A DNA stretch of 64,000 nt from the NCBI RefSeq assembly GCF_037975245.1, contig NC_092562.1, forward strand, positions 30,640,054-30,704,053, in the 5' to 3' direction. The notes under the pieces were generated by a model, which searched no databases, was not told the DNA's origin, and worked only from the letters and a program-made list of their open reading frames with translations. The stretch comes from Apostichopus japonicus. Taxonomy: Eukaryota; Echinodermata; Holothuroidea; Aspidochirotida; Stichopodidae. This document shows, one piece after another, positions 6,861-41,100 of the stretch (position 1 is the first letter of the stretch; each line of letters begins with the position of its first letter). A program made the translations under genes and the position numbers.

Positions 6861-7086
6861 GATTGTATATTCAGAGGTTCAAAACCGGAAAAGAAGGTCG
6901 TAATTCCACTGTAGGCGTTTGTTACCTGTATCGAACAATACTGGTTCTGTTTTTGGTGACATACTTTGCCTTACTCTAGAGATCAAAAATGATGCTAACC
7001 AACTCATTTGTGAATCCTAAAGCCGGATCTCGAAAGAGATACTTTGAACAGACTTTATGTTAATGAAATGAAGGTAAGCGACAAGG

Positions 7087-7088
<2 letters not shown>

Positions 7089-7165
<77 letters not shown>
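7089..7165. repeat. (TA)n microsatellite
   Basis: A pure TA dinucleotide run of nearly 80 bases, directly followed by the left arm of the palindrome at 7169-7342. Confidence 0.95.
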
Positions 7166-7167
<2 letters not shown>

Positions 7168-7168
7168 T

Positions 7169-7342
<174 letters not shown>

Positions 7343-20014: not shown

Positions 20015-20274
20015 TTTCTGCGATAAGATTGAGATTCCTCGGCACTTTCCCCACTGCACGAGAACATGTGTCATTCTTAACTCGTCTTAATTGATGTACA
20101 TGTATTTAAAATAATGAAAACATAGGTTATTTAGGGCCAATTTTATCGAGCTAGAATAGTTACGCGTGATCCACAATACGGATGCTAAATTCGTAGTGAC
20201 CGTACGTACGTAGTGCGGTTGCCTAATTAACGGAATTGAAAACGGCGCCAAATTTTGAGATACCACTTTTTTAG

Positions 20275-20665
20275 CACTGAAAACTTAAATTGGTCTACCG
20301 ACTAACCTAACGTTAGTCCATTTGGTGCCTCTACCGACTAACATAGCTCTAGTCAGTTGCTACCGACTAATTTATTCCTTTGTCGGTTGGATTTCGTAGT
20401 CGGTCATCTTAGTCCGTCAGCTTAGTCGATCAACAATATCTTAGTCGGTAAATGTATAGTAGTCATTTACATTAGTTGGTGACATTAGTCGGTGTTTACC
20501 GACTAATTTATATAAGCCACCGACTAGTTTATAGCAGGTTTTACATTAGTCAGGATGGTGCCTCTCCCGACTAACCTTTCTTAGTCTGTATCGATTGACA
20601 AGTTGCACTGACTAGAGTCACTGAAAGAATTAAACCCGACTAGTTTCACTGACTAGAACCACTGA
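20275..20665. repeat. Left terminus and subterminal repeats of the CACTA element
   Basis: After CACTGAAAA come about fifteen variants of ACCGACTAA or its complement TTAGTCGGT, in both orientations (for example near 20297, 20331, 20361, 20397, 20441, 20486, 20499, 20519). Several have one base changed (TTAGTCCGT, CCGACTAGT). The run fades at about 20665. In plant En/Spm such motifs bind the element-encoded TnpA protein. Confidence 0.8.
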
Positions 20666-20710
20666 GAGAAAAGATAGTAGAAAAAACACAAATAATGTGT
20701 ACGTTGGCAA

Positions 20711-20716
20711 TGTTTA
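20711..20716 (-). terminator. Polyadenylation signal candidate for the element's minus-strand transcripts
   Basis: AATAAA on the minus strand lies about 1.3 kb beyond the SAMD3-like stop and just inside the left subterminal repeats, a natural place for the element's transcript to end. Other AATAAA words exist in this AT-rich tract, so the choice is tentative. Confidence 0.25.
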
Positions 20717-21381
20717 TTTCTGATACAACTTTTGATTTCTACAAAAGCTGGCGATCATAGAGGTTGAAAACGATACAGTAGTAAGGCAGGCAAGGCAGCA
20801 TTAATCACTAACTTTAATTACTTTATTTGACTTAAGAAATACTTATGTTTGGCAAGGCTGTGTTTAGCATGTTTGTATGTATGTATATGACAATGAATAT
20901 AAGGAGAAAACAATATGTGTATTAACATTTGAAAGAATTGGTAGGAATACCTTGGTTTAAATATCTTCACTTCAATAAATAAAAAAATAATAAAATGAAT
21001 GACTTATAATGTATTTGGCTTAAGAAACACTTATGTTTGGCAAGGCAGCACCGACAGCATCAATGACTATGACAAAGAATGTAAGAAAGGACTTGCTTCG
21101 AATATCTTGGTTCAAATATCTACATAAGGAAAAAAAAGAATGTCTGTCTAACAAATATAAAAAAAAAAGTTAACATAATAAACAAGTTCTCAACAATGCT
21201 ACTAATAAATAGAAAAATGTGAGGGTGGAAAAAAATGTTTGTTTCAAAACTATTAGGAACTTTGATGCAAGGATTAAATTTTGGAAGCAAGCCCATAGCT
21301 GGCTACGTAATCACAACCTCGGAAACTGAAAATAGGAAACTGAAGTTGCCTATGTTTCCATAATATTATCACTTATCAACA

Positions 21382-21592
21382 AGGGTGTAACAAAAGAGTT
21401 TGGGGGGGGGGGGGATTTCCAGACAGAGTCCCAACAATTTAATGAAAGATGGCAAAAATAAGGGGCAGGACCATCCATTTTCCTTTTTACCATTATCCAT
21501 TCCCTTATCCATTTGCCGACATATGTCAAACTTGCCAACAAACACAGTTGGGGAGTATGGCACCCCCCCCCCTCCACCCTGGCTATGCTCCT
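21382..21592. mobile_element. Possible hAT-type MITE inside the CACTA element
   Basis: The left end CAAGGGTGTAAC with a following G-run and the right end (inverted) CAGGAGCATAGCCAGGGTGG with a G-run resemble the MITE at 4217-4585. The flanking bases are only roughly alike (TTATCAA, TTCATAA), so the assignment is weak. Confidence 0.3.
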
Positions 21593-22047
21593 GTTCATAA
21601 CTTGACTGACTGCCAACTGAACATAAACTGATGCAAACAAACTCTTATCCTAAACCTAATCGATTGAAAATTATGTTTTGAAGGATATATGGAATATTAA
21701 ATTGAGTATCTGACAGCTGATATGAAAAGGACCGTATCAGCTTCGTAAAGTAAAGTTAGGTATGTTAACATTACAATAGAGAATGACCAGTTCCACCAAC
21801 AATTTTCATTTTGTCAATTTTCTCAGACCTTTCTTGTGACATTTGCAAGGAATTTTTTTTATGGAATTGTGAACATGTTACCCAAGAAATTACTAACTTT
21901 TTTTCCACCACTGGCTAATGGCAACCAGAAATAGAACTACCCCTTTGATAGTAGAAAAAGCAAAACACTCTTATTGGAATCTTCACTTAAGATGTCACAT
22001 CAGGAAGGTTGTGCTAGGGTGTAAGGACATGCACAGGTATATTGAAG

Positions 22048-22338
22048 TCACTTACATTGTTGGGAAAAGTTGGCCAGTTTATTTGTTAAAGAAATGATAG
22101 ATCTAGGTACTGGCACTCCATCATAAATATTAAGGATTACCCTCTGTATGAAACACAGACTTTTGGAGATGGAGGAAGGGTAAAAAAAGTTGAAAACATA
22201 AAAAGAGGAAATCCAGCATGCGATGGCCTTCATAACATTGTCAGTAGAGTTGATCACCATACCGTCTGCCATCAACTTAAAGGATGTGGTTATCCCAGGA
22301 GTGTCTCCATCCATCTTGATGTATACTGGATTACTAGT
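22048..22338 (-). CDS. SAMD3-like exon 8: C-terminal block
   Basis: Acceptor AAATTTGCAG. It encodes TSNPVYIKMDGDTPGITT, MADGMVINSTDNVMKAIACW, FFYPSSISKSLCFIQRVILN and ISLTNKLANFSQQCK, then TGA. The last codons overlap a perfect GTAAGT, so a transcript could splice onward here to an unseen last exon and change the C-terminus. Confidence 0.68.
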   Translation of the reverse strand, partial: TSNPVYIKMDGDTPGITTSFKLMADGMVINSTDNVMKAIACWISSFYVFNFFYPSSISKSLCFIQRVILNIYDGVPVPRSIISLTNKLANFSQQCK

Positions 22339-25300
22339 CTGCAAATTTAGAGCAAAACAATCACATGTAAGTAAACATGTTAAAGACTTGAAATTTGGGA
22401 GGAGAGAGACTGTTGAATATTTTATCTTTGAAAACATGCCAAATGGGTACATTTAAAAAAAACTTTATGTTGTCATCACTTAACAGATCAACTCAGTAGT
22501 AAAAGTAAACCAAGAGTACGGGGAGACTCTAAATTCCAACAAAGGGGGCCCAGCTATTGATATCATCAATTATTTTGCGTATTTATTCTATTTTAGAAGG
22601 GGGCTCAACCCCCTGAAAAACAAAGCCTCCTTTTATGCAGCACTGTTCAATTTGACATTTTGGTGTCATGTACAAGAATTGCTTTAATCAAAGGACTGAT
22701 GGCAAAAGGGTAACTTTAAAAGAAAAACAGGAAATTTTAGTTGATTCTGTCTGCATATGTACAGTACATTATGAATGGACATTTTGTGATTTTATTTTTT
22801 GTATTAATTTTATTTTCCACCATGATCTGATGAATGATTGCATTGGTGCCATAGTACCTAAATTCATTTAATAATTTTTGATTTTCAACATGTGTTATGT
22901 AACATGTAATCACTGTAAGTATTCTTTACAAGTGGATGCGTCCGTGTTCGGAGTAATTGGTAATTGAAATAATAGGCACTCTGATGGCAAAACCTAAGCT
23001 ATACCTAAACCATTGATAGATAAAATTATCTGGTAAAGTGCACTTGTAGGTACTACACATTTTAAATGCAGATATGTCTCTTAAAATGTTTGCTCATGAC
23101 TCATATATTTGAGCTGTTTGTCAACTACTGCAAAAAGAACTCTTAAAGAAGCTCCGAGACAGTATTGCTACTTATCAGGATAATCAGTTCCTTGCTTTTT
23201 CTTCTTCACAGTTTGATTCTTTAACGCTTTTCCCTCATCCAGTTTTAAAAGTCATATAATTTTACAAAAAGGTGAAGCTGTGCAAGTTTAATATACATCA
23301 AATTGGTTAACTAATAGTAACCAAAGAAATAAGGGGTGGTATTAAGAAGCACACACTTGCAAAAGAAACTGAAAAATTTCTTGCCTCTGAGCATGCTGGA
23401 ACCAGAATTAGAGAAATATCCTCTTGCAGGAGACCAGGGATTGCCAGGAAAGCAGCTTTGTTTGATGTGTCTGCAATAGTAAAAGAGAAAAGTGATTGGA
23501 AAAGAAAAGTGATTGTTGAAACCTGGCTTTAAAAAATCATATGTTAAATCTATCAATTATAACAGAATAACCAGTTATACCAACACCAAATATCATAACA
23601 ATGCCACAAACCTGATTATCACTTTGTTTTGGAAGAGATTTTGTAATTCATTTTGTAGAGCTGTGAACATTTAGTAGAGTTACTAAATGTTTACACTCAA
23701 GAAAAAATCAGAAATTCAGCGTGTTACACTGCGTTTAGTAACCAAGTATTCCATACAATCAGTCACTGGAACGATTACTAGGCCCATTGTCATCCAGGGG
23801 GCGCCGGGAGCTTTCCGAGAAGGCAGGAGGGGGGCAGCTGTTTCAAATGGGCACTTACTTTCTGAAACTGCAAATAACAAAAATGAAACTACCCAATTGT
23901 CTCTTCCTCTATTTACCCTTTTAATTCTACTGTGCTAATTACTTTGAGGCGTAGAACCCTTTGTTCTGTGGATCTCCTTTGTCTCTTCAGGAATCTCATT
24001 AACAAGCATTTGTGACCATAGGCGGAGGTATGCGCTCTACCGAGTGCCCATTGTCTTTATATATATTTATTTAGTGCAGTTACAAACGTTTCAGATGAAC
24101 ACTAATCTGCTACAGCTCTATTTTACCCTGAATATTTTCAGATACTGTTTTTTTTTTTTAATTCACTGTTAGACTTCAACTGTACAAGAGAACTATGAAA
24201 TGTTTTTCCTTTTTTTTTATATATATAACCAAGCCATCCAAATTTAATTAAGCATTGTTGATCTTGTTCCCTTAATGTTAATATATCATCACCGCAAACA
24301 TGGACATGGACATCAACACCAAAACAGGCCTTACAGACAGGTCACTGCAGCAAAGGGGAAAATGAACAGAGCAAAGTGTCATGTAACTGTTAAAGGAAGA
24401 ATTTATTGTTTATTTACAATACCTTTTATCTTCTGCTCTTCACGATATCCTTCCATTTCAGTGGTAGCCTCCATGAAAAAAGCATGTGGTGCTCTCTTTC
24501 CTTTGCAGGCCTTGATGAGTCCAGACGCATATCTTCCCAGGCCAGCACGGAGCGAATTAAAAAAAGTAACCTCTCCATCCTGTATGCGATTCATCTCTGT
24601 CAAAAGCTAAAAGAAAATGGTTGATTTTAAGATACAGCAACATACTAAAATTGCAACACTTCCTAAATGTTCCCCCCAATTGGTATTGATACATGAACAA
24701 AATATAGCTAACCCCTCTGGTACCCATTTCAGTTGAGTGGACTGAAGCAATGAATGTTGATGCAATGGTTGGAAATGATGGCCTTCTTGATTATAACATG
24801 TTGCTGTGCAGGAAATGTAAACACCCACTGGCACTCGAAAAATAACACAGATAACACCAATTTTTTCCATCTTTTGCGGAGTTGGTTGTTTTTTTAAGTA
24901 ACACTAACAAGAAATGGTTTACCCTACATTCCTGCAGTTTCCAATATTTGTCCCAATACTTGGCAAACAATCCCAACCATTTCCATTAATTTGCATATCA
25001 AATAATACACTCAATTTTAACAAAAGATATTTTTTGGAAATATTTTAAGTGAAGTACTGCATTATTTAGACAGGGCCAGAAATCTATTGGCAAGTTAGAA
25101 CCAACACACTTAACAGACAATTTTTTTTGTAAGAAAGCTATCTTTCCGCACGGTCTAAGACCCAGGCTCCCATTTAGATAGTGTGTAACAATGTTCCCAC
25201 ATAACACTTTTCACTCACTAGTTGGCTACTTATGCAAATGAATATAACACAGTGCATATGCATCAAAAAATGGATGTGTTAATTGGCATGATTAAGACCT

Positions 25301-28300
25301 CTTAATAAAAGGAATATTCCTATTTATTTTCATAAATTTAAATTTAAGACAGGGAACATTTAAAAAGAAACTGTGTCAATATCTTATTCTGTTTAAAATT
25401 TACAAACTTTTTAGGACTTTTCATTTAGGAAAACCACAAGGTAGATTGGCAACATCTGTGATGTCATGTTAGCACTTTCAGGAAATTTCTTTGAAACACA
25501 AATTGACATTTATCCTTACTAAACTAACTAAACAAGATATATTCACTTGGATGTCATCAAATAACCATGGGTACTTGCTCTTGATATCTGCGAGGGATGG
25601 AGTCTGGGGGGAAGAAATAATCCACGTCCTTCTGTCAGCCAACGTCAGTGCCATTGACTGACTTACTCCTCGAAAGTCTGGCTGCCTTTTACGTTTTTCA
25701 TCCTGAAGCCAACAAATGTGTCCATCAATGGATGCATCGTCTTCTGTTTCAGGGCGGTTCGGGAGATAGTTTTTCATACCCCATTGAGGTGGTGCTGCTG
25801 GTGATTCTGGTGCGGACTTTGGTTTCCTTGCTACTTTTAATTTCTTTTTTTGCACAGCCGCAATTTCAAATGCCACCCGCTTTCTGAAGTTCTGAAACTT
25901 ATATTGCAGCCTATGCTTCCACAGCATCTGGAAGAAAGAATTGTAAAAGGAATATTGTGAGGATTAGGATAGAAAAAAATAAAGGTTACACGGACAATGT
26001 ACAAACTAACAGTAAAATATCTCTTAGCTTACGCAATGTTGAACAGTAAAACTTATATAGATTCAAAAACTAAGAGGATTAAGAAATGTTTCAAGCAACC
26101 TAATCAACTCTGCAGTTTATGTTGTGAGTTAAGTTCAAACTTCACTGCAGTATATCATTCTGCTTCTGATAAGTTTTGTCCATGTTGACATTAATTTAAA
26201 GAGTAGTTATTTTTCTACTTCAATCCAAACAGTTTTGTTAAACACAATATTTCACACACTCAATACACATTACCCTCGGCCATGCAAAAAAAAATTGTTT
26301 CCTGTAAAATTCTTAGATTGAAAAATCTCATGAGTGAGAGAGGAAAATTTGTTTTCCCTTTTTTTTTTAACATGACAGCCAAAGAAAGTACAGTAAAACA
26401 AGAGCCCAAGGGCATTGTGGTTCCTTGCATAGGGGTCTATGACAATACACATAATATTATCAAGCAAGATTGGGCTCAAATAGTCTATATACTCAATAAG
26501 TAATTGTGGTCCTACATGTACCCATAAAGTAACCAACACTATAGCCAACACTTTTGTGATCACAAATTGTGATCAGATTTTTGATCGGAAAGCACTTTTG
26601 AGATCTGAATATGGCATCGAAAATCTAAGAAATATAGGGTCACCTACAAGCTGGTCAACAGATATGATAACATTGGTGACCTCAAATCACATGACTGTTA
26701 AGTTTGAAATTGTTCCACCACCCATTCACAACTTGTCCCAAAATATCAACCATGTCACACCTTGGCATTGGGAGTTTATTGCATTGTATTTCAAAAAATT
26801 AACTGTGAACTTGTATACATAACTTCACACACAAAGGTCACCCGGGGGTCAACCAATGGACATTTTTTATTGGTGACACGTGAATATACCATCAAAACTA
26901 TAAAAATTCAAACAATTTTTTCTTTGCCCAAATAGCAGTTTCTTAAAATGAATTGACCTTTGGTGACCTTGGATCACATGACCATCAATTTTGAAAATAT
27001 ACCCCTATACCATTTCCAACTTGTCCCAAAATATCAACCCTGACACACCTTGGCACTGGGAGTTATTGCATTAAATGTCTGAAAATTTACTTTGACCTTG
27101 TATAACTTCGCACACCAAGGTCACACAGGGTTCAACCAATTGACATTTATGATCACAAGGTACTTTTTATGATCACAAGGTACTTAAAGGTCACCAGCGG
27201 TCAAATTGAGGTCAAGGGTCACCCAGATGCGGGTTGACAATTGGATTACATTGAAGCAACTCCCAAACCCTAACAGACAATTCGTTCTCAAGTGATCGCA
27301 AAAATACTAGTTTTTTATCATTAATTGACCTTTGGTGACCTTGGATCACATGAATGTTAAGTTTCCAAATGTTCCTCTAACCAGTTCACAACTTGTCCCA
27401 AAATATCAACCTTGTCGCACATTGGCACTGGGCGTCATTGCAGTTTTAATATTTTTGTTTTTTGGACCATAACTGACCTTTGTGGGCACCAAAAACAATA
27501 GGGCACACCTTCTCCATATGACAGATCTATAGTCCAAGTTTGGCCTTACTCCAATTTTCCCTTATTGAGATAGAGCGTACCCAAGCAAGTGTCACAGATG
27601 CACACACACATACACACACCCAGACACACGCCAACCTGACTGCATAGGTTCCTTTTGCTAAAGCAAGGAACCAAAAATTGATATATGGATACTCAGGTAT
27701 AATACAGTATTTCCAGCCACAAAATAGTATGTATTGATAACAATGCCAAAATCTACATTTTTGAATGAATGCTTTCCAAATCATAGAAAAAAATATTCCT
27801 TCATTCTTAAATATTATATGTAAAATGTTTATAGAGATAAGGTTCAGAAGTAACAAAACTCTTTACTTTAATTACATTTAATCCAAATTAATTGCAACTT
27901 CAAGGACTAGTGAGAGTATAAATGATCTCATTCAGTATGCCTTATGTGCAAGCACTGTGACTGCCATATATCAATGATATGATATGAATGATATGCTTGT
28001 TGTATTTAAGACTAAGCTGCAAAACATTATTTCATTGGACAAAATTGTTGCTGGCCCTGACACAACTTGTCTTATGGTTGTCCAGATCAGTAACAAGATT
28101 TGTTGAACACTCCCTAAGGCTTTTAATATTGCTTTGTCAGAAAAATGGAAATATTACCTTCAGATTACCAACTGGCATATTGTCTTGTGGAGTCTTCATG
28201 GAAGGGTACTTCACAAACAATTTGGTGATAATTTCATCGTACTGTGCCTTGGACGGATAGCTATGAAAAAAATATAAACTGTAGTCATGCATCAAGTTCA

Positions 28301-31300
28301 CATACGGATAAATTGCATACTCCTACAAATGAAGGTTATATAATGTAGTTTCGTCCTTTAATAGCCAACAGCATATCAACAGCACACCTTGGAGGAAGAG
28401 TTAGAGATGGTGTATATTTGTTGCATGTTTGCTACACAGGGCTCTAGTGGGTAAATCAGGGGGCTGAGCCTTGAAGGTCCCTGTTTTCCGGAGTATAGTC
28501 TGACTTGCTTGACTCCACTGGCAGCACATCGGGATCATGCTGCATATATTTCTGAGTTTGGACAATTTCTGAGGATTAACCATTTAACAACAAGCACATC
28601 TGGGAGGCATATTTGCTACAGAGGGCATTAGAGGGTTAACACCAAACAATCGGACCTTTGGCATGTATTTGTATAAAACCAATTTGCTTTAATTAGCAGG
28701 AAATTTACCCATATTTTTTAACATGTGAAAAATATACATGTACTGTACTACTGTAGGAGATAAATGTGTGCAGAAATAGTCATGAATTTGAAGGGTACCA
28801 TAAAGGAACAAAAGGAATGCAGTGTACTTACTAGATACCATACTTTTCTGTAACCTCTTTATAAATGCTGTCCAAAAAGAGGCTCCTCTCTGCTACGTTC
28901 ATGGTGTATCCACCACTTTTGAGCTTAGATTCTATTGTTGGAGGTTGTACTGGGATCTGAAATTTAGTTATCCATCCAGAATGAAATGACACAGGTGAAG
29001 TAGGATGGGGAGACACAAGGGAAGAAGTTAAGGGTGCAGCAGGTAAGGATGGTGGGTCATCAGCACTGGAAGAAGTGGAAGGCTGTTCGATTGAGACTGG
29101 GGTTGAATATGCATTTGGTGTTGGTGGTGGAGATGGCGAGTTCGGCGTTAACAGCGAAAAGTCAGAATTGTCACGTAAGAAGTCACTGCCGGCTGTATAG
29201 TCAAGTTGAGATACTGTGGATCTGTGAAATGATAGAGCAGTAATACTGTAAGGTTGAGATGGCTAACAGCTAAAAAGTGTTACTTACCATACACATCTTT
29301 TCAACGATTGGACTTTTGACCAAACAGATGCTTCTATTTGGAAATGTGATAACTTTGTGTACATACAGACAATATCAACTACATACATCTTAATTACATT
29401 TTGCCCCATTTTTCATTGATATACAAATGTAATTGCATTGGGAGTCAATGTAGAAACAAGTAGTGTGTGGGAAGAGATTTTCTGTCATAGGAAGCTTCAT
29501 TGCATTATTTAGGATGTTAAAAGTGAGGTTAATGGAAATCTGAACATCTGCCATGTTTGAATCCTATATGGCATATAGATGTGCAATGTCTCATGGATCA
29601 TTTTCACGTTTGCCCATGCCCTCCACTCACACATCACACCCAGCCCAAAAAATTAAATCAGCTCAAAGTATGCAGTTGGTGGGCCATCTCCATATAAGAT
29701 ACAATGATGTTGAAAATTAAATAGTGCTTCACTGCCTTCATACAGTAGGCTGTTACACATCAAAAATAACTGAATGTGTAACCTTTGGAGCGGTCACTTC
29801 AAAAGGGATATGTCTCAACTGTACCTTTTCTACTGTAGATACATGTAAATTATGAGATGATATTAACAAATACAAATACATAATTAACAAAGTATGTAGA
29901 ATCTATTGTCGACAGTAAAAGCTAAATATTACAGAAAGAAAGTAAATTTATTGCACAAATATTGACAATAATTGAATAAGATGTTACCAAAAACAATCAT
30001 TGTTGTTTATTCTACATAAACACAAAAGGTATATCAAAATGAACTTACCCACTGTCACTAATTTCTGCATTTATACTGTCTTCTGCATTATTAATTGTAA
30101 CTGGAAAAGTGGCAGGTTGCTCTTGTCCTTTAACAACTCTCAGTTTGGCAGGCCCATAGAACAACTCACCATCTTCAATGTCAACATAGTCACTGAAATC
30201 TCTATCATAGAGTTGAAGAATCAATTCTGATCCACCCAAACCAAAAGTTTTCACTGCAGCAGCATGAAGTTCTGACTTTGATGCCCCTACGTCATTGGAT
30301 TCAATCTCAACTTTTTTGTTATTTGGTCCAAATATGAGTAGAAATTTGTGACTGAAAATTAAACAAGTCCAAAATAAAGTTATCATCTCTAAAAAAGCGA
30401 CAAAGTAGCAATTGTCTTTTTAACGCCACTTACACCAGTATCAAACATGTTTGAGCATAGTCTCAAAGTCACAAGTGCATTTCACATATTTTTCCATTCA
30501 AATGAAGTTGATGAAAAGGAAATTACTGTCTATACTACTGTATTTTACTTTTCAGTAGACACATAACGATTTTACTTATGTTATGCTTGCAATAAAATTG
30601 ATGTTACAGTACATTTGCTGTGTAAGAACAGTCAACACACTTGAACTTCAAAGTTAAACAAATGCCAATGATATGTACTGCACAAAAAAATACAAGGACC
30701 TCTTTTTACGTGGTAGTACTAACAACACGGCACTGAATGCGAAATCAAATACTAACTGACCAAGATTCGATCCAACCCGCTTGCAAAAGTATGTCTGTAT
30801 GTTCTGCACACTGTGCAATAAAATACAAGGACTACTACAGAACATCTGCATAGGCAGAGTTGGAAAAAGTTTAAACAATTCTTGCATTTCAAATTCACAA
30901 TCGCATAAAAATTACCAAAAAGATCATAAGGGCAAATTTTTATGGAACTAGCATTGATGTTCTCGAACAGAATACCTTCACAAAATTGACTAAACTTTTT
31001 AAGGAAATTGTCAGATTCTTTCTGTCATTCAATTGAAATATGGCATAAATCGGACAGCACCAAACAAATTGTAAAATTATTGCAGCGCAGAAATGTTGCA
31101 TTTATCATAACACACATGCTTCACACAAACGCATGTGTGCCCTTTTTTTTAAAAAGCTGAAGAGACTACCTTTTCAATTATATAATCTAAATATAATCTA
31201 AATAAAATATGCAAAACTTGTTAGCATGAACTTAGAACTGTCTGGTTATTGAAATTCGGGGCTGTATAATTGGATAAATCTTTTAGCTACCATCCATTTG

Positions 31301-34300
31301 TTGAATGATAATTAGATAGTAGGGATATGATGTTAGGTCTTGTTAACAATCAGGATGCTTACAACCAAAAATTGGATACTAGGTGTGGTAGAATCTTCCA
31401 TCTATACAGATTATATCACTAAGAACCTCAGCAATACAAAATTAGCAAAAACATTTTAATACTAAATGCGTAAACAAATTAAAACTGTAGTACTTCAGTT
31501 TAAGCAAAGTGCAATCATACACACTCAACTAATAGAGCTTTAGTTTGCAGTTTTGCTCAGGTCTATGTTTAGAAACACTAAAGTACAAAATTATGCCTCA
31601 GTGTTATAAGCTCCATGTTTCTAGTCTGATATACCCCAAGTGGGTAAGAATCAAAAAGATCTGAACATTTCTTAAACACAAACTTGCAGCCAAAACATAC
31701 ATTAAAAGCATGAACATGAGAAATATACTGTACTCTTTCACTCATGCGGCACAATAAAAACACCTCATCAGTTATAAGGAAACACATGTCAATTTTTCCG
31801 AAACTCCCTTCTTCAACAGCAACGGCTAAGCCTTTGGAATAGAATGAACCATTGTAACAAACTTTACCAACAGAATACACAGATTCATTACCACCAACTA
31901 AAAGCAATACTTGCGCTTGTATTGTTTGTGGCAAAAGCCGGACAGGGTACAGATCACCCTTGGAGTGAGTTAGAGCATCTTCTGTGAGGAAGTTTTGGGA
32001 TCCATGATAGGTGGCTTGCATATACTCATGACGGGTAGCAAGAGTTTTGCACACATTTTTTCGATTCTTTGAAGTTCTAGCTATTTCTTTAAAGTAATTG
32101 TGCTTCCCTTCAAACCTCAATGTCCATGTGTTGATGAGTGGGCCATATTGCAACAGCATTTCAGGGTAATGAACCAAGTAGTGTGCTTTGGGTTTCATTG
32201 ATACATGTGGAAACGCTTCAAAATACATTGTCAAAAATTCCTCAATTAGATCAGCTAAAAATATTGTCAATGCCCTAGTCACTTTCTTTGACATGCAATA
32301 CTGTACGACATCTAACAATTTCAATAATACTTGCCATTCCTTACTATCTTGGGGAATGAAAGAACCGACCATTAAAGGTAACAAACGACAGAGACACAGA
32401 GCTTGACAGGCAGTTTGCTTAACTTTAAAAGTTTGAATCTTGTCAGACATCAAAGAAGGTTTATTAGTGCAATCAGAACCTTCATAAGGAAATTTTTTTA
32501 TCTGTTCATTAAGATCACTTAATGTAAAAAATTGTTGAGTAACACAATACTTGACAACCTCTGCAATGACTTCAGGGATTACCCCTTCAAATAGATCATG
32601 GGCAATGTCTGGTGGACTGCCTTCCACAACATGAAAAAACTGTAATTCATTGAGGCAAGAAGACTGCTTGATTCCATATAGTGTAAAGAGGGCAGGGTTG
32701 GTCTGTACTGCAACTGCTTGCAGTTCATATGCTTCTTTGGTTCTCATTTGCAAATTATCAGATCGAAAATGATTCTTCTGATCAGCTTTAATTACATTAC
32801 AAAATCTACATATCCTCCCATGATTGAAATGTGTTTGAAATCCACCTAAATCATGAGCGGCCAAGTTATCTGCCACTAAGAAAGAAACAGTTCCATGAAA
32901 AGTATATTCAATTCCATCTTTCAAAATTTGAATACCATTTTGCTCAAGAATCTTGAGATCGGAAATAAGTGGCTGGAGTATACTTTCATAACCATATTTT
33001 TTGACATAAATGGTAGGGCACAAAATCACTGACTGAATAGTTCTTAATTTAGAGCGATGCATGGGTGGTAAATTCCCCAGAACAAAGTACAGCACACAAA
33101 ATTTCAGTAAATGAACATGTGTCCCTAATGGATTTGCAACAGTGAAATCGTCACAGTACAGTTGAATTTGAAGGCTATTTGGCTGCTTTGAGAATAGCTC
33201 GTTATCATGAAACCTTACACCATCACAGAAGTCCCCCAGAATATCTCCATCTGGAGAGGAATGCCCATTAATTACTTCACTGAATACATCATCAAATTTC
33301 AACAAGGCCTTTAAAGTTTGAAGAATAGGAATATATTGCATAGTATGCACCTTGGCAGTTACATTATCTCTGCCTAATTCATATTCACAAGGTTTAACTA
33401 CACCAAACTCATTTGCTACATATTTCTGTAGGTTAAGGGCAGTTGAGAAATTATGTAGTGCATGTTCAAATTCACTCTCTTGTAAGACATTGTCTAAACC
33501 AGACTGCTTCAAGACATCAATATTAGTATTTGTTCTTTGTAACACATTATGCAAGTCCTCTGTCATCTTTTCCCTACACATTTTAAGAATGTCGACACAT
33601 TCATTTGCAACAAATGTACAAGCAGCTTGTGGTATCTTATGAATTTCTCTAAGCTTCAACAAAAACATTGAAACTTCCCTATTAACATCAATATCTACAG
33701 CGTCGTCTGCATTAGCATGATTTTCTTCGATTGGCAATTGGTCATCATTTTCAACACCATTATCATTTATCACATCAGCATTTGTTACTTCAAGCCAAAA
33801 TAGTTCATGTTTGAGGCGTATATGGCGACGATATGTTCTAACATTGGAATAATTCTTTGCACAACCATTAATTCCACATACAATTCTAAAATTTGGATTA
33901 TTTCCATGAACAAACCTATAATGTTTCATTAAAGTTTCAAACTTCACAGTGTTAAAAATACAGTAACAACAATTAAATCGCATTTCTGTAGCAAATAGTT
34001 TCACTAAATACAGGAAATTTGTGATTTAATGCACATGTGACTTTGAGAAAATGTATGTAATTTGTTCAAAACCTGATAATTTTGGAACCAATGCAGGCAT
34101 GAGTAACCCTGTTAAGAAATAAGTAAAAAACAAATTTAAATGCAATGGATGGGTAAATACCTGGCTGTATAGTCCACACTTGAATTAGCAACCATAGGGG
34201 TGCCACGTGTTAAGCTGCATAGGAAAAACCTCAAATTTTGCCCACTTTTGCTTTTAACTAAAAAAATTGTTGCATCACTGGTCATAATCATAAAGTTATT

Positions 34301-37300
34301 ACAAATAGTATGATAAATTCCTTTTAAACATATTCCCTGCCAAAACAGTTCAAAAATTTAAATCTTCATGAGCTAGCCTTGTGCGGGATCCCGGTAGTCA
34401 AGTGAATCCCGGTATCCCGATATTGACTATTCCCGATCACAGTACAATGTGTAACTACTACTGGTATTGGGAAGACAACCGGTTATTACATTCGTTTCGG
34501 TATCATTCACAGGAATCCAAGACATAATACAAATATCTAAGTGTTACTATTTGAATTAAAGAAAAGATTACACATATATTTCTGGTTTCTGTATTCTTAG
34601 TTTGAATAATATCTGATCAATTTACATACTGACCTAGACCTATATATTAACGAATCAACTGTTCACGTAGTAATTTGGACCTAAGCTATCAAACGTTACT
34701 TGCGCTCAGCATGTTACGTGACCTCAAAGTTATTCTGAAATTGTTGTTATTTATTCTGCCTTCAATTGATGATTGTCAAGGTTCCCATGAACAAAATCTC
34801 ACCTTTATGCATTTCACCTCATTTTGGTATAATAATTATAACGATTTAATAAATGTTGAGCCAAAACCGCACGTAATATTAAATCCATCTTCGCACGGGA
34901 CTGTATATTATTATAGCCTAGGGTACTGTACTGGTACTCACACACAGTGTAATGCAGTACTTGAGATTTGATGCTGTAATGAAACGGATTCGTTTATTAA
35001 TACGGAGGGTTCAACGATGTCAATAAAAGTTATCTTTTGCTATTTTTTCAATATTTCAGAACTTTTGTACAAAATATGGATATTGTACGTTTCGAAAGTA
35101 TATTTTCTAGAGTAAAAACAGCTGATTAACGATATAAATAAATCTGTACTATTCTTATGTATGTAGTTTAAAAATCCCGTATTTACGTAGCCCCTGTGTT
35201 ACATTCTTATTGTCTGAAGTTCCAAACACGTGGTGACTTGTTGACAGTTAAAAACTTTTCATTGTGAACTTTTGAACTTAAAGGGAAGGCGTTGAAAAGG
35301 CCCTAATATAGCCTGTTATTTTTTTTTATAACCGTGCGTGTAAGAGTATGTACATAACCTATAGGCTATGCATATTGAATGTATGACATCCCGGTTGTAG
35401 TTACGATACCAGGACTCATGTTGCAGCACTATCGGTTGTGTGAAATCAGACTACCGCACAGCGCTAGCATGAGCAAATACGAGGAAAATCTGAGACAGTT
35501 TTGGAAAACTCTCAAGGGACTTGAAAATGATGTTCCAAACATCTTGAGTAGCAAAATCAACTTAAATTCATTCCTCTGTATTTTATGATAGGCAAATCTG
35601 TTATTAAGGTTAAAGTAAGACTTATATAGTTGTTTCCCCTGCTTTTCAACCAAGAACATCAGGAACTTCATATTTAAGTCCCTTGGGAGTCTTCAAAAAG
35701 TGTCAGAAATTTTCCTCTTTTTTGCTTAAATCGATGAAAGTTTTTTAACATTATAATTTGAAAGGAATATGCTTAAAGGGAATTTATCTTGTTATTTTAA
35801 ATAGTTTCATGACCAGTGGTGGGATACTGTAGTTCTTAGGAAAAGGTGCAAAAATCAGCAAAATTTGAGGTTTTTCCTATGCAGCCCCTAAGGCTATGGT
35901 TTCATTTCAAGTGTGGCCTATAATGTAGAGCCAAATAGTAAGAAGTCAAATTACAGTGAATATACTGTACACATCATTCACTGTTCCTGAACTAATTAGT
36001 TATTAAGAGTATAAATTCTTTCAAAATCATACAAAATTCTCTATGCAATCTACGTCTATGGACAGGTAAGGATTTAATATGCACCAGAAACAGCAGTAAA
36101 TTATGAACACTGTAGTCTTTAAATCACAAGTGAAGGATTTATAGTTTTTTAAGGTATGGTTGAACAAAGTTTTTAAGAATGTTTAATATATGCACAAGTC
36201 GTGATATACAATCAAGAAAGCCACTCAGAAAAGTTAATGTAATTCGTTTAATTTCTTTCCAAAATTTCACCCCTTGATATTTAATTGAATCCTTTTTATT
36301 GCTGAAATTTGATAGGGGTATGATGAACATTATAAATCTCTTGTTCATATTCAGTTTCTTCTTCTCATAAATCTTTGTGTGAGGTTTGAAAAACAATACA
36401 TGGTAACATAAGAAAATGTACGGTTGACTTGATGCCATGTCACACAATTAAAATAAAATTGGCATAATTTATTATAATGAGTCCTCAAAATGCAAAAGTG
36501 CTGTAAAATGGTAAATATTAACTGATTTTGATGATTTTTTGCTGTGTTCATGGGTTTATTGCATACCTTCTTTAAAATATTAAGCACCAGTCATTGCTAC
36601 CTGTTCATGGATTTTAAAATGTAATGATATTTCTTTTCATTTCTTGTATGCATATAGGGCTCAGTACAGTTTGAAGGGGTCAGTTACTGTATCATTACAT
36701 TTACACTAACAGTCAATGGAGAAATTTTACTAGATTATTCAATTCTTTTGTGGTTTAAAAAAAGGACTGTAAATAATTTCTTTCTTTAAATGTTTTAGAT
36801 CAATGCCTAACACATCAAATTAGTAACAAACAAAAAATAATAACACATTTCCTTACCAAAATAAAACAGGTGTTTTGGACCAAAAATTTGGCAAAATGGT
36901 AGCCATTTTGAATGATTTTGACAACAACAAAGGCTTTAAACTTCGTTATAAAGTATCACTTTAAATTAGTTTTGATGTGAATGGAGAGCTGAAATTTAAC
37001 TAAAATAATAGCATATGAAGAATTCATGCTCTTTCTGTTAGTTATCTTAAATTAGAGTCAAATTATCGCAAAAATTTGAGAATTTCCCATTGGCTTCAAT
37101 GATAAATATCCTATCATTTTTTTAACAAAAAAAATCATTTCTTCATAACTAAAGCTTATTTCCAGCCGGTTTTTCGCAGGAATATTGTGTTTGGTGACCA
37201 TGTTCAACATACTTGAGTTTCAGAAATTTTTCTCCACCAAATAAAAAAATATTTCGAACAAACTGTAAAAAGCTAGTTTTTTTACCCCATTGACTGTAAT

Positions 37301-37677
37301 GATAAGCGACCCCTCCAACTGGAGAAAACGTGCTGAGCCCTGAAGCCTATAGGCTACACTCAAAGTTTGAACCTAGGCTACATTCTTTTCTAAAACTGCC
37401 CAATTGCGAGTGTGGCCATTACCGTAAGCCTGTTGGAATTTATGCATCTTTACGATATTAGCCCTACTAGTACTGTTACTTGTTAGTGTTACTATAGCCT
37501 AATTAATATACGATATGCAGGAATTCTAGCCTAACGTGTGACCAAAGGCTAAAATTCATGGATGTTAGCTTAGTGTAGAGCCTAGTGTTATGTCTTATCG
37601 TGGACGAAACTATGAATAAAGACTTACAATTGGCGTGAACATAAGGATGAATCCAGTTGCGTGTCGAGGTCAGACAT
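22048..37677 (-). CDS. SAMD3-like protein gene, eight exons, 605 aa, carried by the CACTA element
   Basis: Spliced coding segments: 37677-37628, 30351-30049, 29221-28832, 28260-28158, 25927-25547, 24606-24423, 23470-23355, 22338-22048. The total is 1818 bases, one frame, with every phase matched. Exon 2 gives a PB1/ubiquitin-like fold (KFLLIFGPNNKKVEI ... ELILQLYDRDFSDYV). Exon 3 is a Ser/Pro linker, then a GWITKFQIPVQPP block. Exons 4-5 give YPSKAQYDEIITKLFVKYPS, HRLQYKFQNFRKRV and RPETEDDASIDGHICWL. Exons 7-8 give AFLAIPGLLQED and a C-terminal FIQRVILNI block. This domain order matches proteins annotated in fish and invertebrates as 'sterile alpha motif domain-containing protein 3-like' (recalled). 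No SAM domain is obvious. Function unknown. Its place in the transposon suggests an accessory, perhaps DNA-binding, role. Confidence 0.75.
23355..23470 (-). CDS. SAMD3-like exon 7
   Basis: Acceptor CTTTTACTATTGCAG. It encodes TSNKAAFLAIPGLLQEDISL and VPACSEARNFSVSFAS. The donor is ambiguous: three GT dinucleotides overlap (GTGTGTGC). I chose the one at 23354 because it alone keeps phase 0 for the next exon. Confidence 0.65.
24423..24606 (-). CDS. SAMD3-like exon 6
   Basis: Acceptor ATTTTCTTTTAG; donor GTATTG. It encodes LLTEMNRIQDGEVTFFNSL, RAGLGRYASGLIKAC and MEATTEMEGYREEQKIK. Phase 0 in, phase 1 out, joining exon 7 to make an Asp codon. Confidence 0.7.
25547..25927 (-). CDS. SAMD3-like exon 5: conserved core
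   Basis: Acceptor TTCTTTCTTCCAG; donor GTGAAT (weak but in phase). It encodes LWKHRLQYKFQNFRKRV, a Lys/Ala-rich stretch, YLPNRPETEDDASIDGHICW, MALTLADRRTWI and SLADIKSKYPWLFDDIQ. The EDDASI...H block is the most recognisable hallmark of the family. Phase 0 on both sides. Confidence 0.75.
26560..27660. repeat. Degenerate repeat block built on TGACCTTTGGTGACCTTGG
   Basis: Three copies, starting near 26650, 26950 and 27310, share CAACTTGTCCCAAAATATCAAC, a CACACCTTGGCA(T/C)TGGG word, and TGACC-rich segments. The block ends in a CA-rich tail (27600-27630). A related block is at 54668-55330 in the PTP region. It lies in intron 4 of the SAMD3-like gene. Confidence 0.6.
28158..28260 (-). CDS. SAMD3-like exon 4
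   Basis: Acceptor TTTTTCATAG; donor GTAATA. It encodes YPSKAQYDEIITKLFVKYPS and MKTPQDNMPVGNLK, the conserved 'YPxKxQxxxxxxxLxxKYPxL' element of SAMD3-like proteins (recalled). Phase 2 in, phase 0 out. Confidence 0.72.
28832..29221 (-). CDS. SAMD3-like exon 3: Ser/Pro linker and WxxxFxIP block
   Basis: Acceptor ATTTCACAG; GTAAGT donor at 28831-28826. It starts STVSQLDYTAGSDFLRD, runs through a Pro/Ser/Thr-rich segment (NSPSPPPTPNAYSTPVS) and ends with GWITKFQIPVQPPTIESKL and RSLFLDSIYKEVTEKYG. Exit phase 2 joins exon 4 to complete a Tyr codon. Confidence 0.7.
30049..30351 (-). CDS. SAMD3-like exon 2: PB1/ubiquitin-like domain
   Basis: Acceptor AATTTTCAG; donor GTAAGT. It encodes residues 17-118: a KFLLIFGPNNKKVEIES beta-hairpin, a helix KSELHAAAVKTFGL, then ELILQLYDRDFSDYVDIEDG and AKLRVV, the strand-helix-strand pattern of PB1 or CIDE-N domains. 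The acidic DRDF...DIEDGE segment resembles an OPCA-type motif. Confidence 0.7.
31578..33983 (-). CDS. CACTA/EnSpm-like transposase, single exon, 801 aa, N-terminal C2H2 fingers
   Basis: The first ATG with a good context (CAGAAATGC) is at 33983; seven open codons precede it without an ATG. Two C2H2 fingers open the protein: C-x2-C-x12-H-x4-H, then C-x4-C-x12-H-x4-H (residues about 3-55). Further on come LYCDDFTVANPLGTH (about 279), LVADNLAAHDLGGF (about 374), a CRFC zinc knuckle (about 390), PPDIAHDLFEGVIP (about 461) and LRFEGKHNYFKE (about 624). These blocks match multicopy transposase-like proteins of fish and invertebrates related to plant Tnp2 (recalled). The Asp, Asp and Glu of the DDF, ADN and FEG blocks are my candidates for a DDE triad. 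There is no frameshift or premature stop, so the gene may be functional. It lies inside intron 1 of the SAMD3-like gene on the same strand. Confidence 0.8.
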   Translation of the reverse strand: MRFNCCYCIFNTVKFETLMKHYRFVHGNNPNFRIVCGINGCAKNYSNVRTYRRHIRLKHELFWLEVTNADVINDNGVENDDQLPIEENHANADDAVDIDVNREVSMFLLKLREIHKIPQAACTFVANECVDILKMCREKMTEDLHNVLQRTNTNIDVLKQSGLDNVLQESEFEHALHNFSTALNLQKYVANEFGVVKPCEYELGRDNVTAKVHTMQYIPILQTLKALLKFDDVFSEVINGHSSPDGDILGDFCDGVRFHDNELFSKQPNSLQIQLYCDDFTVANPLGTHVHLLKFCVLYFVLGNLPPMHRSKLRTIQSVILCPTIYVKKYGYESILQPLISDLKILEQNGIQILKDGIEYTFHGTVSFLVADNLAAHDLGGFQTHFNHGRICRFCNVIKADQKNHFRSDNLQMRTKEAYELQAVAVQTNPALFTLYGIKQSSCLNELQFFHVVEGSPPDIAHDLFEGVIPEVIAEVVKYCVTQQFFTLSDLNEQIKKFPYEGSDCTNKPSLMSDKIQTFKVKQTACQALCLCRLLPLMVGSFIPQDSKEWQVLLKLLDVVQYCMSKKVTRALTIFLADLIEEFLTMYFEAFPHVSMKPKAHYLVHYPEMLLQYGPLINTWTLRFEGKHNYFKEIARTSKNRKNVCKTLATRHEYMQATYHGSQNFLTEDALTHSKGDLYPVRLLPQTIQAQVLLLVGGNESVYSVGKVCYNGSFYSKGLAVAVEEGSFGKIDMCFLITDEVFLLCRMSERVQYISHVHAFNVCFGCKFVFKKCSDLFDSYPLGVYQTRNMELITLRHNFVL
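34215..35884. repeat. Long inverted repeat nested in the CACTA element
   Basis: The 27-base arms at 34215-34241 and 35858-35884 are exact reverse complements (CTGCATAGGAAAAACCTC...). Weaker matching extends on both sides. A second, inner inverted pair lies at about 35478-35540 and 35660-35735. The segment is probably a MITE-like insertion. It sits between the transposase and exon 1 of the SAMD3-like gene. Confidence 0.6.
36656..37341. mobile_element. MITE nested in the CACTA element, 686 bp
   Basis: AGGGCTCAGTACAGTTTG opens the left end; AGGGCTCAGCACGTTTTC opens the right end on the other strand. Both continue with a GGAGGGGTC/GAAGGGGTC word, ATCATTAC and CAGTCAATGG. No open frame is inside and no clear target duplication was found. 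It lies in intron 1 of the SAMD3-like gene. Confidence 0.6.
37628..37677 (-). CDS. SAMD3-like exon 1 (start codon)
   Basis: CTGAAAATGTCTG is a good start context (A at -3). The exon encodes MSDLDTQLDSSLCSRQ plus two bases and ends at a consensus GTAAGT donor. Its phase 2 end joins exon 2 (phase 2 entry) to make ..SRQFHKFLLIF. It lies 430 bases inside the right terminus, so the promoter would be in the terminal region. Confidence 0.65.
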
Positions 37678-37859
37678 TTTCAGTTTCAACTTAAAATAAA
37701 GTACGACAGCCGGACGGAAATATTACAATGAACTTAACTACAAACTAGGATGTATTTTGAGTGGTTGGAATCGACAAGTTTCTGTTTAGGTGTCATGCAG
37801 CATGTAGACTATTCTTGCACTGTTGCAGGCGAAATGTTCACGTGGTTTCAAATACCTTA

Positions 37860-38108
37860 GTTCGTCGCCACCGACTAAGCTACAATTATGGCGCGAATCG
37901 GGTGTCCGGATCGTTTTTAGTCCGTGGGTTAAAATAGCTTAGGCCGTCGCCGCCGACTAAGCTACGATTATTTTTTCCTTAGTCGATGTAAACCGACTAA
38001 GAAGCAGTGATGAAAAGAAGATTTTTGCTAGTCTGTGTGCATTGACTAACGTTAGAGACTAATTTAACGTTAGTCCGTTGCAATATTGACTAGTTTATTT
38101 TTTCAGTG
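37860..38108. repeat. Right terminus and subterminal repeats of the CACTA element
   Basis: ACCGACTAAG, GCCGACTAAG, TTAGTCGATG, AACCGACTAAG, GACTAACG and TTAGTCCGTTG are packed into 240 bases. They end in TTTTTTCAGTG, the inverse of the left CACTGAAAA. They mirror the left-end repeats at 20275-20665 and are absent from the sequence between. Confidence 0.8.
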
Positions 38109-41100
38109 AGGGGTATATAGCTCAAACTTAAAACAAATATAACACACGTATACACTGAAATGAACACGATCGACCAGTACAAAATTAAATAAATGAATAA
38201 CTAAATTTGCCTGCAATTGATTTAGAAGCAATATAAGCAAACTACGAAAAATTGTCTATAAGAATCTTACAATTTACCTGTCGGGGGATCATAACAATAA
38301 GTAGCGAATTGAAAGCTAATAATATTAAGCATGACCCAGTGTGATTAGGAACAAAAAAAAAAAAAAATCAGCGAGACGTAGAACATGTTTGTTCAATAAA
38401 AAATCAAAAATATATATATTATTAATACCTTTTGAATGAATTTCGTTAACTTATAAGATTCGTTAAATAATATTCCAAAATAGATGAGCTTTATATGCAT
38501 AATTCCAATAATTATCATTATAAATAGTCTGGTCACATTTTCTAAAGCATACGAGTTCGACGTACCCTACACGACTCTGAGTGAAATAAATTCTTCAATT
38601 CCACGAACCTGTTGGGTTATACACTTACCTACACGTGTGCCGTTGTCTAGCCTACACACTGTTCACTACACGTATTGTGTTAGGATGTCGTAGTATATTA
38701 CCGAAGAGCATGGGTAGGAAAGTTGCACTGCATCTGCAGAAAGACATCGTCGTGTATGTGCGGGCATTTATGTAAAGTATATTTGGCGGATTAGTATGTT
38801 AAGGAGCAGGATTGTAGCTCTGCAAGTAAGATAATTACGGGAATGTGGAGGACTAGGTATGACCTTGGGGTTTACAACTTAGTTATGCTGGTAGTAGTAC
38901 TAGGATTATAGTTAATGTGCCCTTGTACTGTACTTGGCTACATTTGAAAGTGCGGGTTTACGTATTCTGTGTTGCTCAGTACAGGTTATGTTCTAGTATT
39001 TGTTTATTCAGTGACTTCCATCTAAAGTGGTATACGATTTCAACAGTTGTAATAGTTAAACCCTTGTTAAAGAAGTGGGTGTCTGTGAGTGAAACATGTA
39101 GTCATATGTTTTGTTTAGGCATTCTGTGAGGTCGGAGGTATTTAGTATGCATTGTAATTACTTCGTTTGCTTTCGTATGGGAGTGCCGTACTTGGGATAC
39201 GTTTTCAGTTTTGCCTGGAGAGGTTTCGTGTTATATTTTGATTGTTATATTTACTTGTTATTTTATCTTTCATAATTAGTTGTGCTCATAAAAGTTACGT
39301 AGTTTTAGTTGGACAATAGCGACTATGATACTTTATAGTACTTAATGGGTTGAATTACTACCTTTATAGATGCTTTGATGCCTTCCTGGTAGCTCTCGGG
39401 TGTTTCAAGGTCGGGAACTGGCCAGGAAAGTCAGCAACACCGTCATACAAACGGGGCTCGTCTATTTGGGGTTTAATAGAGGGGCGTATTTAATTAAGAG
39501 GCGTATTTAATAAAGGGGAGTATTTCATTAAGGCTAAATTTTAAATTTAAATGTATAAGATTTTTTATTTGTTTATGGTTGCTCGGTTTTCACCGAACAA
39601 CTAATTAAGTATCCTGGCTTGTGTTTTTTAATAAATAAGGAGACAGCAAAAGCATACCGTAATTTTTTGAGTCCGTTTGAATCTTTCTCTTTGAGACTTG
39701 ACCTGGGTTACACTAAAATATTAACTTTAACAGCCTGGAACCGGCCAGAAAGGTACGACCGTAGCCAGGCAAACGCATTTCCAGATCGTTTTGTCAAGTT
39801 TCTTATAGGAGTCAGTTGATCGATGGTATAAAAGTCAGCAGATTGTTCCAATAGAACTAGGATTGCGGCTTAACGTGAATCAACAGATGTCAGGTCATTT
39901 TGCACACGAACAACAGCTTTTTCGGTACCGTGTCCATGGCAATAGGCTGCCTGCATTATGTCAGCATTACCTGTAGCGTAAAGATGAGTAGAAAGTCTCT
40001 TAACCGCAACTCTCTTGGAAACTTTAGATATTAAAGACAAATTGGCAGTAGGCCTGTTATTCCCAAGGATACTGACACCGGACAGAATCAGATTCTGACT
40101 CTTTTGACTGTAGGTTGTATTGGGAGATCTTCAACAGTGCCATATTCTTTATTTTCAACCTTTAACATCGAAACACAACTATTCTGTTCCGTAACAGATC
40201 TGGCAATTAGTAAACCAAATCTAGTTCGATTTGTTTACGTCATGTTATTAAATAACTTTACAAATATTTGGTATCGTCCACCACAGCATCTCCTCCTTGT
40301 TTTCTTTAAACCATATATATCCATTGACCTCAGTAATTCAATTAAATTAAACGACTGTAATAGACAATAGAAAACACAGATGGAGAAAATTCCACAAATC
40401 ATTCTTGGTTAATATATTTCTTCAATACCCCCAATCCAGGACGAAACAAAATAAAAGGGAAATGCTTTCAATAGCCAGAAAAATGATGATATGAAACCTG
40501 CTCAATTAAGTTAACTTTACTTAAGCATTAAATGCATGAATACATCAAACTGGACTAGTCTAAGATGACAGTGGTATCTGGTGGTAAAATGTATTTGGTA
40601 TTTCAGATATAGTGGCTATGAGCGTCTTTTCGATGGATACTGCCATTTCACATGTGTAAGAAGTGACATTCCATATAATATAGACTCCAAAAGAATGTGA
40701 CCTCCAGATGACTAGGTGTCTGTTATAAATCCAGATCTGTTATGAATGAATTTCATATTCTTGAAGTGTAACTGAAAATAATAAAATATTTACATAGTGT
40801 GATATATCTAATTATAGATAGGCTATCCATATTGTTTAATGAAATCAACATTTTGTTTTGTTCTCTATTTTCTCTACATTTTATTATTTATTGGCAGCAA
40901 AATCAAAGTTTGCAGAAAGCAGCTAGAAAAGTTCATTACACCAAAGTTTATGAAAAACTAAAAGACTGGATGTGTAATATATCAATCATACCATTTATGT
41001 ACTCAATGATGAAAGTTTGAAGCCAACTTTCTTAAAAGTGAAAAATAGAAGAAAAACTTTCGAGCTCCTTATCATATATGACTTCACGTATATATTGCTG

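Follow-up and report, generated by a model that had tools for sequence, protein, structure and literature searches.

A 17.8-kb CACTA-like transposon of Apostichopus japonicus with a transposase ORF nested in a SAMD3-like gene model

CACTA/EnSpm transposons are bounded by short inverted repeats in which CACT is followed by either A or G. In the maize element En/Spm, the numbers of subterminal repeats differ between the two ends and insertion generates a 3-bp target site duplication. The tnpD ORF of this element is located in the intron-1 region of a second gene, tnpA, and TNPA binds the subterminal repeats; the TNPA-type proteins of plants are described as having little similarity to each other (PMC2613891). 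According to the same source, the large soybean element Tgmt* (20.5 kb, with CACTA ends and a 3-bp duplication) contains a single large gene from which splicing produces both the transposase and a protein that putatively binds repeats, the latter not described there as SAMD3-like. Among animals, SmTRC1 and other TRC members belong to the CACTA superfamily and contain a Transposase_21 domain, have direct repeats of 2 bp flanking 7 of 14 copies, and yield alternatively spliced products (PMC1636069). No second protein of animal CACTA-like elements was identified in the openly accessible literature that was searched.

Here, we describe a 17.8-kb transposon of the sea cucumber Apostichopus japonicus that occupies positions 20275-38108 of the window, that is, the whole 64-kb stretch of DNA analysed. 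Like maize En/Spm as presented in PMC2613891, it has subterminal repeats (protein-bound in maize), a tnp2-like ORF placed in the intron-1 region of another, multi-exon gene, and non-autonomous deletion derivatives. It differs from the maize element in its ends (CACTG versus CACTA), target duplication (2 versus 3 bp), size (17.8 versus 8.3 kb) and second protein, which is SAMD3-like and is likened to TnpA on the basis of gene layout. It shares the superfamily and the 2-bp duplication with the TRC elements, and probably also the transposase domain type, its Pfam match being below the cut-off; these elements, in the description available (PMC1636069), have CCC ends, a length of 4.5 kb, other protein parts without detectable conservation, and no SAMD3-like protein. 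Taken together, the evidence makes it likely that this young, structurally complete CACTA-like cut-and-paste transposon has two core genes in one transcription unit, and that the SAMD3-like product is the functional counterpart of plant TnpA/TNP1.

Ends, target duplication and subterminal repeats

The terminal inverted repeats, CACTGAAAA at 20275-20283 and TTTTCAGTG at 38100-38108 (both on the plus strand), are perfect over 9 bp, and an AG duplication flanks them at 20273-20274 and 38109-38110, so that the inverted termini and flanking AG of the original prediction are both confirmed. Of 40 scored matches, 38 start at the first base of the left repeat, and 37 of 40 stop at the last base of the right one. 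As in CACTA/EnSpm elements, the short inverted repeats start with CACT(A/G), and subterminal repeats form arrays at both ends. The left array (20297-20589) consists of 14 copies of ACCGACTAA in both orientations and the right array (37870-38078), on the 5' side of the genes, of 6 copies, each with at most one mismatch. At this threshold, the 64-kb window contains 22 matches compared to 8.4 expected; at least 22 were obtained in none of 100 shuffles, the highest of which gave 18. The predicted packing of the repeats at both ends is borne out by 20 of the 22 matches, which fall within the two arrays. The unequal repeat numbers are another similarity to maize En/Spm, as that element is generally known. 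In three families of the sea cucumber elements, the repeats are more numerous on the 3' side of the genes; the GACTA core is common to the families, and the bases preceding it vary by family.

The termini were read in four copies of the window family, two of the C10/C17 family and two of the C22/C12 family. CACTG ends are also found on the C10, C17 and C12 copies, with alterations at the left end of the C22 copy and the right end of the C2 copy. The target duplication is 2 bp in all six copies with both ends intact, not the 3 bp typical of plant elements, and is probably 2 bp as well in the two copies with one altered end. Because 2-bp duplications are a feature of animal TRC members, we classify the element as CACTA-like, of the animal type.

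Nested genes and their predicted roles

The transposase-like ORF predicted in the element is open at 31578-33983 on the minus strand and encodes 801 amino acids. The product is tnp2/Transposase_21-like, with a match to tnp2 (PF02992) that is below the Pfam cut-off (E 0.0016; 18.1 bits, cut-off 28.6); among 10 aligned members of the transposase family, 4 match PF02992 at E values up to 0.01. The acidic residues D278, D372, D459, D463, E466 and E625 of the window transposase, which are candidates for the catalytic positions, are invariant in the 10 aligned sequences.

The predicted SAMD3-like gene is likewise intact, and its eight-exon model is identical in 590 of 590 residues to the database protein P0001 (NCBI "SAMD3-like isoform X3"). 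All exons are on the minus strand: coding exon 1 at 34161-34195 (MVANSSVDYTA plus 2 nt), exon 2 at 30049-30351, exon 3 at 28832-29221, exon 4 at 28158-28260, exon 5 at 25547-25927, exon 6 at 24423-24606, exon 7, with a GC donor, at 23385-23470, and exon 8, with the stop codon, at 22048-22338. Of the seven introns, six have GT-AG boundaries and the remaining one GC-AG. In the database gene model, exon 1 is upstream of the transposase, so that the transposase ORF lies within intron 1 and the two genes are not arranged side by side. An upstream first exon is also present in the gene model of the C10/C17 family, the transposase of which is 62% identical; thus, judging from the gene models, the En/Spm-type nesting of the transposase ORF in the second gene's first intron occurs in two families. 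This nested layout is new here.

Given that the transposase ORF sits within the first intron of the SAMD3-like gene model, we propose that both proteins are produced from one pre-mRNA by alternative splicing, comparable to the spliced products of SmTRC1/TRC (PMC1636069) and the single large gene of Tgmt* (PMC2613891). The transposase would cut and join DNA at the CACTG ends, giving rise to the 2-bp target duplications. The SAMD3-like protein most likely plays the part of TnpA in this animal element: it would bind the repeats with the GACTA core near either end and pair the two ends for the transposase, and it may also regulate a promoter at the right end.

It is possible, but rather unlikely, that the SAMD3-like protein is a core component with a role other than repeat binding, such as anti-silencing, nuclear targeting, or a partner function confined to holding the transposase together. 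Such a role would be compatible with the lack of a recognised DNA-binding domain in this protein, for which repeat binding is what we infer. Specifically, the Pfam scan found no domain, SAM included, in the window protein and no SAM domain in three relatives, and a search of solved structures with P0001 and P0003 produced four matches (E 0.5-0.88), none of which is a relative. Nevertheless, residues 276-320 of P0001, encoded in exon 5, form a very basic stretch (14 K/R and 2 D/E in 45 residues), diverged SAMD3-like proteins go together with shifted subterminal motifs across the families, and TNPA provides a plant precedent for a protein acting on subterminal repeats (PMC2613891), all of which argues for the repeat-binding role.

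Linkage, co-divergence and relatives of the SAMD3-like gene

The original prediction considered the SAMD3-like gene to be either cargo or a core element gene, and the data from this genome favour the latter. At 61 of the 67 listed transposase loci, SAMD3-like exons follow downstream on the same strand at a distance of no more than 16 kb. Many of the 67 are copies of one family and hence not independent, and the two transposase searches scored 56 of 451 candidates in one case and 51 of 496 in the other. No listed locus has such exons nearby in another arrangement, and random placement yielded at most 2 transposase loci with downstream SAMD3-like exons in 1000 runs. Two of the remaining six loci hold SAMD3-like exons detectable by profile, bringing the count to 63 of 67. 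Downstream of seven further transposase groups, SAMD3-like exons were found in all seven cases (best E 1.1e-4 in the weakest group), and in 79,636 bases of control DNA, the same search gave a best E of only 0.079. Viewed from the SAMD3-like side, the association is less complete among the loci listed: at 116 of the 177 SAMD3-like loci, the transposase candidates scored include none upstream, and these 116 may be solo copies, copies with deletions or host genes. At 17 SAMD3-like places, only the last exon matches. Two database proteins, P0001 and P0003, are encoded by element genes in the A. japonicus genome.

The two genes also diverge in the same order, with identities of 62, 44 and 32% for the transposase and 48, 35 and 24% for the SAMD3-like protein, and the pairing persists even where transposase identity falls to about 30-31%. 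Both genes are under purifying selection: pn/ps between the window element and C10 is 0.29 for the transposase and 0.27 for SAMD3-like exon 5, and the respective values for C22 are 0.49 and 0.44. Constraint is weaker in the last SAMD3-like exon (0.43 against C10), and for exon 5, comparison of the window with the copy at 5.70 Mb of C22 gives a dN/dS of 0.65, based on very few changes. The deep persistence of the pair, the matching divergence and the selection on both genes point to a gene that is core to the element and inherited along with it, not to cargo captured by it. Capture of a host gene, once, as a passenger of the element family is known in kind, given that CACTA elements capture pieces of host genes (PMC8195511), and would fit the NCBI annotation as an ordinary gene and the 116 loci without a listed transposase. 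It appears very improbable, however, and we reject it in view of the constant order and strand at 61 of 67 loci, pairing across such divergence, similar pn/ps values, and enclosure of the transposase, as by tnpA, in two families.

What gene databases present as an ordinary gene of the sea cucumber is, then, the second gene of a jumping element, belonging to a named family listed as host genes and nested like maize tnpA. In protein database searches with 8000 candidates scored, the window SAMD3-like model and a profile of four families each matched three proteins, all of them from A. japonicus. A joined transposase and SAMD3-like query matched 15 proteins of 769-891 amino acids, including one limpet and six fish proteins, over at most 64% of its length and in the transposase part only; among viral contigs, 59 stretches fit the pattern and none was related. 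Vertebrate SAMD3, the namesake that NCBI assigns to the window protein, carries a SAM domain, which the element protein lacks. A C-terminal SAMD3 sequence, approximate in its letters, scores 128.8 bits against the element-protein profile, compared to 6.3 for the best of 500 shuffles. We lean towards the broader view that, in the CACTA-like transposons of animals, the role of TnpA is filled by SAMD3-like proteins as a single conserved second component, that the 'SAMD3-like' genes present in multiple copies in fish and invertebrates belong to transposons, and that vertebrate SAMD3 arose by domestication of one such gene and its fusion to a SAM domain. If so, conservation across animals would contrast with the dissimilarity of plant TnpA-type proteins, and whether plants and animals have a two-protein mechanism in common would become testable. 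SAMD3-like genes would then serve as a marker in annotating such elements, studies counting them as host gene families would call for caution, and vertebrate SAMD3 would gain a candidate origin.

Further copies and empty sites

The search for further full-length copies sharing these ends, suggested along with the original prediction, identified three, 98.6-99.7% identical to the window element, each inserted elsewhere and flanked by a different 2-bp duplication; in one of them, the right end differs in two bases. The duplications flanking the four full copies are AG, TT, CA and TA. An empty site, the other check suggested, was found as well: the flanks of the window are duplicated about 336 kb away at 92-96% identity, and the duplicate lacks the element at the corresponding point and has a single AG at C2:30996711-30996712. 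The duplicate region contains its own element copy (C2:30997438-31014624); the window represents the unoccupied state of that insertion, which corresponds to the TA at 38854-38855 in the right flank of the window element. The empty sites in this duplicated region are thus reciprocal, with the element at two different sites. There is virtually no chance that the gene pair was multiplied by segmental duplication of one ancestral pair instead of transposition: the duplicated flanks would be in line with it, but they carry the element at different sites, and in the C9 and C15 copies, homology to the window terminates at the CACTG ends, each copy having its own 2-bp duplication, which refutes this origin for the four copies read.

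Element boundaries, copies and mobility

The CACTA/EnSpm-like transposon at 20275-38108 of the window starts with CACTGAAAA and terminates with TTTTCAGTG, with AG directly outside on both sides, which bears out the originally predicted termini; nine bases of the two ends are perfectly matched, and the match further in is weak. We searched the ends against the 671.6-Mb assembly (35 contigs; the window is C2:30640054-30704053). Of the 40 matches scored per end, 38 on the left (from 324 candidates) begin exactly where the element begins, and 37 on the right (from 318) stop exactly where it ends. Pairing the two lists yielded, among the matches listed, four full copies and, at 3.6-4.6 kb, three short elements. 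Besides the window element, the full copies are C15:27865148-27883000 (99.5% identical to it; 2-bp repeat CA), C9:31225707-31243522 (99.3-99.7% in three pieces; TT) and C2:30997438-31014624 (98.6-99.3% in four pieces; TA). All three share its ends and carry 2-bp repeats of their own, the right edge and TA of the C2 copy being placed by inference because two of the last three right-end bases differ. The short elements, C15:12322643-12327216, C4:3942941-3946532 and C9:33942983-33947612, have ends about 90-95% like those of the window element and are probably non-autonomous members of the large group represented by the 324 and 318 end candidates.

The flanks of the element (about 17572-39749) are duplicated some 336 kb away, at C2:30994001-31016000, with the larger pieces 92-96% identical. 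In the duplicate, both flanks are joined at a single AG without the element, which is the empty site anticipated by the original prediction, and the duplicate has an element copy of its own 0.7 kb beyond that junction; the corresponding target TA is present only once in the window (38854-38855). The window region and its duplicate are reciprocal empty sites, and the window element is mobile.

Allowing up to one mismatch, the 64-kb window contains 22 matches to the motif ACCGACTAA, compared with 8.4 expected, and 20 of these lie within the terminal ~320 bases at one or the other end of the element. TTAGTC/CTAGTC cores number 17+10 in the outer 600 bases of the window element, 25+13 in both the C10 and C17 elements and 11+7 in the C12 element, and 6, 12, 10 and 5, respectively, in the far longer interiors of the window, C10, C17 and C12 elements. 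The bases preceding GACTA differ by family (CCGACTA; CCGACTA with CTGACTA; GTGACTA with ATGACTA), and in each family compared the repeats are more numerous at the 3' side of the genes. Upstream of the genes, the window element also contains inverted repeats with arms of 65, 56 and 38 nt (34214-35885), possibly an older insertion.

A transposase within the first intron of the SAMD3-like gene

The transposase ORF (31578-33983, minus strand) is open over 801 codons. Its match to Pfam tnp2 is below the Pfam cut-off; its relatives include 15 database proteins, among them one from limpet and six from fish; the nine of the 15 that were aligned show 27-37% identity to it. The SAMD3-like gene, also on the minus strand, has eight coding exons (34195-34161, 30351-30049, 29221-28832, 28260-28158, 25927-25547, 24606-24423, 23470-23385 and 22338-22048), and its product is identical over 590/590 residues to the Apostichopus japonicus database protein P0001, 'sterile alpha motif domain-containing protein 3-like isoform X3'. 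These coordinates place the transposase wholly inside intron 1 of the SAMD3-like gene; in the C10/C17 family, too, the first exon of the database protein P0003 lies upstream of the transposase. Pfam detects no SAM domain in the window protein, and exon 5 encodes a strongly basic stretch. The database also contains a gene model, P0002 (BSL78_12620), in which SAMD3-like exons are fused with a portion of the transposase; it either is mispredicted or reflects a long spliced transcript. Elsewhere in the window, at 7067-7549, a long TA-type simple repeat contains an open frame without gene character.

Both genes are open in the window element. The C9 copy has an open SAMD3-like gene (587/591 positions the same, including the stop) and a shifted transposase C-terminus; both frames are interrupted in the C15 copy; and the C2 copy combines an open transposase with damage in SAMD3-like exons 2, 4 and 5. 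A fifth relative, C22:5696414-5709723, retains exons 2-8; the transposase stretch and exon 1 have been lost, and no element ends are recognisable.

Linkage and order of divergence of the two genes

Two transposase searches, which scored 56 of 451 and 51 of 496 candidates, gave 67 listed loci (55 from 74 rows and 12 more from 78; the remaining rows matched additional parts of loci already counted). Four SAMD3-like searches (73, 101, 61 and 97 rows), with neighbouring exons joined, gave 177 loci, including some fragments and weak matches. At 61 of the 67 transposase loci, a SAMD3-like match follows on the same strand no more than 16 kb downstream; no locus has one within 16 kb in any other arrangement. 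In 1000 random placements such pairings averaged 0.14, with a maximum of 2. The remaining six loci are C7:7297984, C17:16090153, C16:9169012, C8:40575263, C9:23933366 and C1:19550288; the last two were read, and SAMD3-like exons are present by profile in both. The 67 loci are not independent, 21 of them belonging to one family; at the level of transposase groups, SAMD3-like exons are present in all 11 read (window, C10, C22, C2:8082428 and seven more), the weakest best E among the seven being 1.1e-4 (C1:19550288), and 79,636 bases of control DNA gave no SAMD3-like match better than E 0.079.

The 21-locus family, C12:22083805 and 20 similar places, looks recently active: a frame of 868-872 codons is found in 17 of the 21 (one with an internal stop), and a SAMD3-like exon, at least 96% identical to one another's query, lies ~4-5 kb downstream in 20.

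Identity to the window proteins also falls in the same order, C10, C22, C2:8082428, for the transposase (62%, 44%, 32%) and the SAMD3-like protein (48%, 35%, 24%, the last two from manually spliced models). Synonymous sites are saturated (ps 0.77-0.87) and non-synonymous change is low, with pn/ps for the transposase and SAMD3-like exon 5 of 0.29 and 0.27 (window-C10), 0.49 and 0.44 (window-C22) and 0.47 and 0.47 (C10-C22). The last SAMD3-like exon is under weaker constraint (0.43, window-C10). Between the window element and the C22 deletion copy, dN/dS in exon 5 is 0.65, from few changes.

A core gene in the tnpA position

The original prediction that the SAMD3-like gene is transposon cargo or a core element gene is supported and can be extended: the evidence makes the SAMD3-like gene a core component, rather than cargo, of a CACTA-like element in which it occupies the place of tnpA. 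Against the core-gene reading count the 116 of 177 SAMD3-like loci without a listed transposase upstream, which cannot be dismissed; given the fraction of transposase candidates scored, these are not equatable with solo genes. Two of them were read, the C22 deletion copy and a damaged C10-family fragment at C16:10609278. C16:36167137, C9:15805145, C15:5043078 and 14 further places match the final SAMD3-like exon alone (about 33-37%) and have no transposase listed close by.

In maize En/Spm, according to PMC2613891, the intron-1 region of tnpA contains the tnpD ORF, the subterminal repeats are bound by TNPA, transposition needs both products, and repeat-binding proteins from different plant elements have little mutual similarity. 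Since the window element shows this same arrangement of parts, the SAMD3-like protein would most likely be its repeat-binding second protein; we infer by analogy that repeat binding and splicing occur here as well and that transposition depends on both proteins.

Schistosoma CACTA-superfamily elements have 2-bp duplications and alternatively spliced products, for which PMC1636069 reports no detectable conservation outside the transposase domain. In our literature searches, judged by titles and the opening of abstracts, no listed paper joined SAMD3 with CACTA elements. As a lead only, a provisional C-terminal sequence of vertebrate SAMD3 scored 128.8 bits against a profile of the element proteins, compared with 6.3 for the best of 500 shuffles.
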